This document shows, in pieces, positions 555-3,398 of a stretch of 22,598 nt of DNA (its first letter is position 1; every line of letters begins with the position of its first letter). The stretch is from positions 1 through 22,598 of IMG/VR virus record IMGVR_UViG_3300034375_002368. One strand, given 5' to 3'. The notes below the pieces were generated by a model. The model made no database searches and was not told where the DNA came from. It was given only the letters and a program-made list of their open reading frames with translations. The translations under genes and the position numbers were made by a program. This DNA is from a virus.

Positions 555-661
555 TATATATCCTTTTTAACTAATTTTGGAGCGGAATGATTGTACTGCC
601 CAAACTTCTCCTGGTTGGAAACCAAGTGTTTTACTTTTAAACTAATTCCGCATTTGTTCAT
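554..661 (-). CDS. Candidate 35-codon leader ORF before peroxiredoxin
   Basis: An open frame starts with ATG at 661 and ends with TAA at 556-554, sharing one base with the peroxiredoxin ATG (TAATG), an arrangement typical of translational coupling. The peptide begins MNKCGISLKVKHLVSNQ and ends KLVKKDI; it is basic and matches no family I recognise. There is no Shine-Dalgarno site. The -10 box at 669-674 predicts a transcript start near 662, so the mRNA would be leaderless for this ORF. The same stretch also contains a long-range stem (582-588 with 645-651), so it may instead be a structured untranslated leader. Coding status is uncertain. Confidence 0.35.
   Translation of the reverse strand: MNKCGISLKVKHLVSNQEKFGQYNHSAPKLVKKDI
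582..651 (-). promoter_or_regulatory. Foldable leader upstream of peroxiredoxin
   Basis: In the transcript GCGGAAT (651-645) can pair with ATTCCGC (588-582), seven perfect pairs enclosing about 56 bases. Inside, TGGTT (624-620) and AACCA (616-612) form a small hairpin. Such nesting can be a regulatory leader or mRNA stabiliser. It does not resemble a riboswitch class I can name. It overlaps the 35-codon ORF candidate, and the two readings compete. Confidence 0.3.
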
Positions 662-2162: not shown

Positions 2163-2615
2163 CTATTTAATAGATATAGTTCTTGCTTTCTTGTGGTCTG
2201 GTACGATTTTCTCTAAAGATACTTTTAGTAAACCATCTTTAAGTTCAGCACCTTTGACCTCGACATCATCTGCAATCGTAAAAGATTTTACAAAGCTTCT
2301 TTTAGCAATGCCTTTGTGTAATACGCCGTCATTGTCTTCCACTTCTTTTTCTTCTTTTGATTTTACAGATTCAATTCTTAGGATATTATCCTCATAATTT
2401 ACTGTAATGTCTTTTTTACCGTAACCTGCTAGAGCCACCTCAATGTCATATGATAAAGAACCTGTCTTTACTATATTGTATGGTGGATAATTACTAGCCG
2501 TCATTGTCGGTAGTTGAGTTGTCAACATATCGAAATGGTCGAACATATCGTCAAAACCCACCGTAAATGGTCGTAGTCCAGTAAAAATTGAATGAATTGC
2601 TTTTGAATTGGTCAT
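2163..2615 (-). CDS. hsp20: Small heat shock protein Hsp20 (IbpA-like)
   Basis: A 150-residue alpha-crystallin chaperone that binds unfolding proteins without ATP and holds them for refolding; cytoplasmic. The alpha-crystallin domain spans about 43-140: YPPYNIVKTG, a repeating strand pattern, then RSFVKSFTIADDVEVKGAEL and DGLLKVSLEK, as in bacterial IbpA/B. The C-terminal I-x-I motif (ISI, 147-149), which packs into neighbouring subunits, is present. The N-terminal arm is short. Length is normal. GGAGG lies 8 bases before the ATG. Its control region is notable: a sigma70-like box overlapping a T4-type late box, and a hairpin at the predicted mRNA 5' end. Hsp20 genes are common in T4-like cyanophages and related marine phages; a role in folding abundant virion proteins is a reasonable inference, not shown here. 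Confidence 0.93.
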   Translation of the reverse strand: MTNSKAIHSIFTGLRPFTVGFDDMFDHFDMLTTQLPTMTASNYPPYNIVKTGSLSYDIEVALAGYGKKDITVNYEDNILRIESVKSKEEKEVEDNDGVLHKGIAKRSFVKSFTIADDVEVKGAELKDGLLKVSLEKIVPDHKKARTISIK

Positions 2616-2678: not shown

Positions 2679-2710
2679 TATTTATATAGGCATTAATTTT
2701 AAAATGTCAA
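2679..2710 (-). promoter_or_regulatory. Composite early/late promoter of hsp20
   Basis: The minus strand shows TTGACA (2710-2705), a perfect -35 box. ATATAA follows at a 17-base spacing, or TATAAA at 18. The same bases form TATAAATA (2686-2679), the T4 late promoter consensus read by gp55. Hsp20 could therefore be transcribed by host sigma70 early and by the gp55/gp45 machinery late. Confidence 0.6.
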
Positions 2711-2720
2711 CCTATAAAAT

Positions 2721-2758
2721 GGTTATTTTTTTGCATACAAGGCTATAAAAAAATAACC
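2721..2758 (-). terminator. Perfect 12-bp inverted repeat, possible terminator
   Basis: GGTTATTTTTTT (2721-2732) and AAAAAAATAACC (2747-2758) are exact reverse complements around a 14-base loop. On the minus strand the stem is followed by ATTTTATAGG and then by the hsp20 -35 box. It could end transcripts of the gene-free region to its right. The stem is AT-rich and symmetric, so direction and strength are uncertain. Confidence 0.35.
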
Positions 2759-3130
2759 AAAAAACGAGCCGCAGCTTAAGTTCTTTTGAGAGTTGAACCA
2801 GGCGCAAATGCCAAACAAACTCATCTAGGTTAACGCTAGCGCCCCTAAATTCTGTTATTGGTAGAGGTAGGCCTCACCCTCTTTTACCCTAACTTGTCTT
2901 ACCAAGCCTATCACTAGTCATGTGCTACGAAGGCCAATGGACCAATAAAGAGTAGTCTAACCGTGGACTACCGTGTGTGTATTAAGGCACAACCCTTAAA
3001 GTGGTAGTTTTTTTAATAGAGATACTACCAAACTCTTGCGACCCCGACATTAATTTGTCGGTCTTCCCTACGCTACTGGACTTACGAACCGCCAGCATAA
3101 TATATATAACACTTCAAAGCGTAGGAATCT
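2759..3130 (-). ncRNA. Hairpin-rich gene-free region, candidate structured RNA
   Basis: No credible ORF is present in this gap between bS21 and hsp20, yet it is GC-richer than its surroundings and full of exact short stems: 3067-3074/3118-3125 (8 bp, starting 6 bases after the bS21 stop, with a CTGG/CCAG pair inside), 3044-3049/3056-3061 (6 bp), 3002-3008/3024-3030 (7 bp), 2982-2987/2994-2999 (6 bp), 2952-2957/2966-2971 (6 bp), 2864-2867/2872-2875, and a closing GGCGC/GCGCC pair 2801-2805/2839-2843. A possible pseudoknot joins the loop at 2988-2993 to CACA just beyond. I looked for tmRNA, RNase P RNA, tRNA and group I intron hallmarks and did not find them. The strand is inferred from the operon direction; the stems themselves are strand-neutral. 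It is probably cotranscribed with bS21. Confidence 0.5.
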
Positions 3131-3340
3131 CTAAAAACCTCTAATCTTTTCCAACTTTTTCTGTTGTTTTTTCCAGTTCTTAATAGCCTCTTTTTTCTTT
3201 TCCTGTTTAATTTCGGAGGGCTTTTTGTAATATTGTCTTTCTCGTAACTCTTTAATCAAGCCTTCTTTTTGTACTTTCCTTTTTAGTACACGCATAGCTT
3301 GTTCAAGGTTACCATTTCTAACATTAACTGTAATACTCAT
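3131..3340 (-). CDS. rpsU: Ribosomal protein bS21
   Basis: A 69-residue, very basic protein matching bacterial S21 along its length: MSITVNVRNGNLEQAMRVLK, then RKVQKEGLIKELRERQYYKKPSE with the family's basic helices and a Lys-rich tail. bS21 binds the 30S platform near the anti-Shine-Dalgarno end of 16S rRNA and helps translation initiation. Viral bS21 genes are reported, including in pelagiphages; a phage copy could exchange into host ribosomes and favour viral messages, which is inference. Length is typical (about 65-71). GGAGG is 9 bases from the ATG. It stands between a terminator-like hairpin after the AAA+ gene and the structured gap. No separate promoter was recognised, so readthrough from upstream is likely. 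Confidence 0.93.
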   Translation of the reverse strand: MSITVNVRNGNLEQAMRVLKRKVQKEGLIKELRERQYYKKPSEIKQEKKKEAIKNWKKQQKKLEKIRGF

Positions 3341-3374: not shown

Positions 3375-3398
3375 GGTGGAGGGCACTACCCCTCCACC
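3375..3398 (-). terminator. Strong hairpin between the AAA+ gene and bS21
   Basis: GGTGGAGGG (3375-3383) and CCCTCCACC (3390-3398) pair over nine GC-rich positions with a six-base loop. On the minus strand it follows the AAA+ stop by about 27 bases and is trailed by TTTCTTATAC, a broken U tract. It probably ends or attenuates the cobT/cobS-like transcript before bS21. Confidence 0.6.

Follow-up and report, generated by a model that had tools for sequence, protein, structure and literature searches.

Genes and RNA features between bS21 and hsp20

The window, i.e., the whole stretch of DNA that was analyzed, is a virus record of 22.6 kb. Its genes are T4-like and all lie on the minus strand, and it most closely resembles Pelagibacter phages, e.g., Mosig EXVC030M (Kyanoviridae). 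Among its genes are a phage gene for bS21 (30S ribosomal protein S21), assigned by tblastn to the annotated S21 of Mosig and HTVC008M, and a downstream gene for an IbpA-like small heat shock protein (hsp20). An earlier note, made from the sequence alone, had described a gap without genes between both, at 2759–3130, with a GC content above that of the surroundings, and had proposed that it holds a new structured RNA. In line with this, no convincing conserved ORF was found in the bS21–hsp20 gap, and a protein-coding reading was rejected since the ORFs there span only 31–47 aa; the GC content of the gap was 0.45 vs. about 0.3–0.36 in the surroundings. As also proposed, the RNA element directly follows bS21; it starts right after the stop codon and is on the same strand. 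It is, however, longer than first delimited, extending from ~3127 to ~2721, and lies on the minus strand, none having been stated before. The features, all on the minus strand, are the following:

3131–3340, minus strand: bS21 phage gene
3119–3127, minus strand: 5' arm of P1, pairing with 3064–3074; the arms vary among relatives and stay complementary
3101–3108, minus strand: TATATATA, a T4-type late-promoter-like motif (TATAAATA class) in the P1 loop (motif only)
3075–3096, minus strand: P1a hairpin, loop C-N-R-Y-U-C-R-U-A-A-G-W, the anchor in 88/88 relatives
3064–3074, minus strand: 3' arm of P1, pairing with 3119–3127
3038–3063, minus strand: P2 hairpin (CCGACA..UGUCGG), then conserved GGYGUCGC
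3003–3036, minus strand: PKa, H-type pseudoknot with A-rich loop 3 (covariation; match to covariance model R1); S1, 3033–3036 with 3018–3021; S2, around 3024–3029 with 3003–3008
2952–2999, minus strand: module B (optional), a hairpin with a (C/A)CUUAAUA loop, then a hairpin with an ACGGUUA loop
2858–2945, minus strand: module D (optional), an outer stem, a GGYC with GRCC pseudoknot and a hairpin closing GGGUGAGRCCUACC
2824–2849, minus strand: variable hairpin, GCGCUAGCGUUAA loop here and GCGAGAGU loop in other relatives (by inspection)
2771–2822, minus strand: PKb, part of the 3' core, then AGCUGC; S1, 2818–2822 with 2790–2794; small hairpin RGC-AYUUGC-GCY, 2801–2812; S2, 2795–2799 with 2779–2783
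2721–2770, minus strand: PKc, H-type pseudoknot (covariation); S1, 2767–2770 with 2741–2744; S2, an AT-rich 12-bp stem, 2747–2758 with 2721–2732
2679–2710, minus strand: separate hsp20 promoter region, TTGACA plus TATAAATA (motif only)
2163–2615, minus strand: hsp20 gene, downstream neighbor

Relatives of the element and its link to bS21

Related loci were collected by a bS21 search, which gave 80 IMG/VR loci, many of them also matched by the gap in blastn, and more were added by means of patterns from the conserved 3' core. De-duplication reduced these to 88 distinct regions located 3' of bS21. Metagenomic contigs account for most of the loci, and the element was called present on the basis of patterns and of a single model dominated by sequence. 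P1a and its conserved loop occurred in all of the 88 regions, most of which continue into the P2 hairpin and PKa. A compact form of ~150 nt, composed of P1 enclosing P1a, then P2, GGYGUCGC and PKa, was found as such or nearly so in 57/80 loci. The long form (23/80 loci; 49/87 distinct regions that were classified, the window included) adds the optional modules and the 3' core, made up of PKb with its RGC-AYUUGC-GCY hairpin, AGCUGC and PKc, and a few long forms lack PKa (e.g., L105 and L116).

Two isolates also carry the element. In Mosig, it is overlaid by Mosig_00015 and Mosig_00014 (L081:2601–2849), two annotated hypothetical proteins that are unlikely to be real genes; in streamlined marine phages, structured RNA has thus been overlooked and annotated as small proteins. 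Isolate HTVC008M has a reduced form, with two hairpins of the same loop type plus a single pseudoknot, and one gene lies between bS21 and this element.

The RNA follows bS21 in every locus with enough flank, including those in which further genes lie between the RNA and hsp20; the distance to hsp20 amounts to 0.9–1.4 kb in some relatives, Mosig among them, while the RNA is still next to bS21. Further, its strand is that of bS21 in all relatives. R1, a covariance model derived from the compact relatives with the window left out, recovered the window copy at 3002–3111 on the minus strand (E = 8e-10). R1 gave no match on 0.7 Mb of loci fetched with module B, and its hits in loci fetched with module D, independently of bS21, were all located 59–441 nt downstream of a bS21 gene in those checked (10), which indicates that the core is tied to bS21. 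A search of cellular genomes (84,980 species) with the 3'-core pattern returned two hits, both without the rest of the RNA.

With regard to the 3' end, PKc variants (columns 97–145 of alignment A1) are freely combined with various bodies upstream of them, which gives the impression of an RNA assembled from exchanged cassettes.

Conserved stems, pseudoknots and stand-alone modules

The earlier note had built its case on a dense set of perfect stems. Many short stems are indeed present, but, as judged by shuffles, their density in a single sequence does not exceed chance. Folding of the interval 2759–3130 was not significantly different from that of dinucleotide shuffles (z = -1.65 on the plus strand and -1.07 on the minus strand), and the 515-nt minus-strand gap gave z = -2.8. 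Since shuffles fold as well, single-sequence folding was rejected as proof of structure, and the evidence for the RNA rests on the comparison of relatives. A long-range GGUCGCA/UGCGGCU pairing in the minimum free energy fold competes with stem 1 of PKc and was not adopted. RNAalifold recovered little structure from sequence-only alignments because pseudoknots cannot be placed and MAFFT shifts variable stems.

At the 5' end of the element, the P1 arms of relatives reached a median helix score of 21 vs. 14 for swapped partners. The inner 4-bp stem of P1a is perfect in 77/88 relatives, several of its loop positions are invariant, and a TATAAATA-class motif is found 4–8 nt before the P1a stem in 85/88.

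At least one pseudoknot is present, as the earlier note had suspected. PKa was analyzed in an alignment of the compact class (A3; 24 rows) that had been aligned by sequence only, in which its 13 pairs were paired in 93% of cells, compared to 75% in shuffled and 24–47% in slid controls. Mapped on a maximum-likelihood tree, the PKa stems showed 16 independent double compensatory changes, while 500 site-independent AliSim simulations gave 0.9 on average and never more than 5; because these columns had also served to build the tree, 16 vs. ≤5 is to be read as a strong indication and not as an exact P value. In the other class, S2 of PKa alone was paired in 96.7%, and the pseudoknot finder placed AGGAG/CUCCU, AGCAG/CUGCU, GGUAG/CUACC and CACAG/CUGUG at the same place as S1, variants that are illustrative given that this tool picks the best pairing.

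A similar picture was obtained for the 3' core. The closing pair of its hairpin is A-U in 30 rows and G-C in 23, and never mixed, and the S2 pair of PKb varies between U-A, C-G and G-C. PKc scores exceed the 95th percentile of shuffles, and its S1 reads GGCU/AGCC, GAGUU/AACUC, GUGUU/AACAC or UGUG/CACA in relatives. The perfect 12-bp inverted repeat pointed out by the earlier note is real and constitutes stem 2 of PKc, the last pseudoknot (2721–2732 with 2747–2758), although it lies just outside the interval to which it had been assigned.

Compensatory changes in interleaved stems beyond the phylogenetic null argue for a structured RNA rather than for stems formed by chance. Both covariation and conservation in relatives, on which the earlier note had made its proposal depend, were found and were strong, and they support a new structured RNA. 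They also bear on whether the locus could instead be a DNA-level feature, such as a replication origin or a site of packaging or recombination, with inverted repeats that merely resemble RNA. Inverted repeats near a promoter motif and frequent cassette exchange would fit such a site; neither the H-type topology nor the compensation seen in interleaved stems is simply explained at the DNA level, however, and the strand matches bS21 in all relatives, so we consider it very improbable. Taken together, the comparison of aligned sequences indicates that the gap almost certainly encodes a real RNA family, not listed in Rfam, that is modular and rich in pseudoknots.

On their own, modules B and D were each found in other marine phage contigs, at least dozens per module, and thus add two stand-alone RNA motifs found in many other phages; neither is present in Rfam. 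The module B motif, AGGGU..CUUAAUA..ACGGUUAG, was detected in >60 distinct sequences of marine phages among the matches listed (e.g., L241–L316 and L082:3001–3050), where 23 of 24 distinct strand pairs of its first hairpin are perfect, compared to a mean of 2.7 for swapped partners. Also among the matches listed, the pseudoknot pair of module D is U-A in 77/86 and C-G in 9/86 with no mixed case, and its hairpin is perfect in 20/24 distinct strand pairs. SAR11 phages with module D include the isolates Kolga, where it lies two genes after bS21, and Aegir (L354–L412; L442:36495–36606), and at least one contig contains two copies (L394, L403).

When alone, module B starts within 5 nt of a stop codon in 28/79 of the matches listed. 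This location at or near the stop codons of many genes, together with the intergenic position of modules B and D elsewhere, points to cis action and counts against the explanation that we favor below. The RNA could accordingly be a cis-acting intergenic mRNA element, in which stacked pseudoknots protect the 3' end of the late bS21 mRNA or segment and stabilize the bS21–hsp20 transcript, and modules would be swappable because sturdiness outweighs identity. The mosaic exchange of modules is consistent with this, as is the fact that P1 begins a few nt past the bS21 stop with a 5' arm preceding the promoter motif. However, loop sequences are conserved far beyond the needs of a mechanical barrier, the RNA has its own late promoter motif, and the core stays tied to bS21 rather than being used at many genes. 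On balance, we regard a cis-acting element as possible but somewhat unlikely.

Module B was also tried as a general element following late promoters, which was rejected, as only 4/79 of the matches listed have this arrangement. In another myophage type (L251:7875–7989), the bS21–hsp20 gap has a simpler layout, a GATAAATA motif and then module B alone, which is therefore located between a late promoter motif and hsp20. In Melnitz and relatives, module B follows tmRNA, at the spot occupied by the glutamine riboswitch in other phages. Both locations, and the occurrence of manA RNAs in 5' UTRs of ibpA chaperones (PMC2864571), would agree with a regulatory leader or a multi-aptamer, riboswitch-like element controlling hsp20 or the next gene. 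Like manA, wcaG and the glutamine riboswitch, the present RNA is a structured RNA of marine T4-like phages, and manA precedes ibpA (hsp20). Those RNAs are, however, in Rfam, and the position of the phage RNA follows bS21 and not hsp20: the glutamine, manA, wcaG and other marine riboswitch-type models gave no match in the window or its relatives, while the glutamine model did match other loci. Further, in the window a separate promoter motif for hsp20 lies 3' of the RNA, hsp20 and the RNA are parted by whole genes in some relatives, and no consistent terminator or sequestration of a ribosome site was found. A leader function is hence improbable.

Known RNAs and possible functions of the element

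No match of the gap to any of the 4227 Rfam families was found at the gathering threshold, and only chance-level ones up to an E value of 10; the relatives likewise showed no match beyond chance. This Rfam search had been set beforehand as a test of novelty, and up to E = 10 it assigned the window to no known class. Neither GOLLD, ROOL nor other large phage RNAs matched in the window at E values up to 10. The open-access literature held no paper joining pelagiphage and pseudoknot, and none describing an RNA at this place. New thus means here that the RNA has no relation to any listed family; its mechanism may prove ordinary.

As SAR11 phages carry a two-piece tmRNA (PMC9004378), which resembles the present element in being a stable phage RNA with pseudoknots and of similar length, we considered a highly derived tmRNA or another known catalytic or decoding RNA. 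Several pseudoknots and a comparable size speak for it. In contrast, standard, alpha and permuted tmRNA models did not match the window, while the same models matched other fetched loci; ARAGORN was negative on the gap; inspection of the gap revealed no tRNA-like acceptor or T-arm, CCA-type acceptor or tag reading frame; and Mosig has a separate annotated tmRNA elsewhere. Hence, this origin is scarcely credible. RNase P and tRNA models also lacked a match in the gap, so that the absence of tmRNA, RNase P and tRNA signatures stated in the earlier note holds true. The only hit of these models in the window is a tRNA at 581–651 (minus strand), which was not called by ARAGORN.

An H-type pseudoknot is known from the leader of the gene 32 message of phage T4. 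The present RNA shares with it an H-type pseudoknot in a T4-like phage message and differs in that it is not at gene 32, has several pseudoknots and is always tied to bS21. Closer in position is the L17 downstream element (RF01708), a structured RNA that immediately follows a ribosomal protein gene and lies in the potential 3' UTR of this gene (PMC2864571). The phage element is likewise a structured RNA directly 3' of a ribosomal protein gene and on its strand, but the protein is another one, and the phage RNA is larger, contains pseudoknots and a late promoter motif, and did not match RF01708 or any other Rfam model.

With regard to bS21 itself, this protein is a component of the complex of the large non-coding OLE RNA, bound outside the ribosome, where it binds a mimic of the Shine-Dalgarno/anti-Shine-Dalgarno pairing (PMC12054373). 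OLE and the phage RNA are both large structured non-coding RNAs with a bS21 link, the phage RNA gene adjoining the bS21 gene. They differ in that OLE is ~600 nt long, belongs to Bacillota and has bS21 as a proven partner, whereas the phage RNA is connected to bS21 by adjacency and showed neither a match to the OLE model in Rfam nor the conserved ~600-nt architecture. The OLE complex makes binding of the phage RNA by bS21 a concrete hypothesis. AGGAG/CUCCU forms S1 of PKa in only a few relatives and this stem varies freely in others, so that the sequence does not decide on bS21 binding.

As for transcription, we infer expression and transcript ends from sequence motifs. A T4-type late promoter at the 5' edge would give rise to a late RNA of ~100–350 nt, and a start at the base of P1a fits the position of the motif. 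With the putative promoter motif inside the P1 loop, P1 would form only in read-through transcripts from bS21. For other phages, expression of their bS21 in late infection has been reported (PMC9723584). A discrete late transcript is rather likely, and the RNA would act in the manner of a 3'-UTR-type non-coding RNA that belongs to bS21.

The function could be that of a discrete non-coding RNA or of a cis-acting element, and the two leading readings are accordingly a non-coding RNA made late as a discrete species, with a link to bS21 and late translation, and a cis-acting element of the late transcript. The best explanation overall, to which we give a probability of roughly 0.6, is a new late phage RNA family tied to bS21. 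It is weakened by the P1 5' arm preceding the putative promoter and by the scarcity of terminator-like U-runs, found after the last stem in only 11/49 long forms; the same count led us to reject a universal intrinsic terminator at PKc.

The conserved loops would most likely be docking points for a protein or for other parts of the RNA. The constant link to bS21 hints at a function in translation late in infection, for which phage bS21 itself would be a candidate partner, and it is conceivable, albeit doubtful, that the RNA acts through bS21 or translation. By analogy with OLE, one may further speculate that SAR11 myophages encode a two-part ribonucleoprotein, consisting of their own bS21 and the adjacent late pseudoknot-rich RNA that it binds, which would redirect late translation, and jointly that modules B and D are members of a wider, undescribed set of RNA elements shared across marine phages; we deem this combination unlikely.

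SAR11 bacteria are very abundant and their phages are among the commonest viruses of the sea. Their bS21 is a known puzzle, being a ribosomal protein without apparent partners, and it has been suggested that it requires no other viral factor (PMC7029224). A large conserved RNA beside every related bS21 copy checked is a possible partner.

A further structure was observed on the other side of the gene, in the 5' leader of bS21, where a strong hairpin with a GUAGUG loop and a T-rich tail is located at 3375–3398 (minus strand). Its stem covaries and is kept in roughly half of the relatives, several of which also show an outer UAGUGUAA/UUACACUA pairing, making it a candidate terminator or bS21 leader element.
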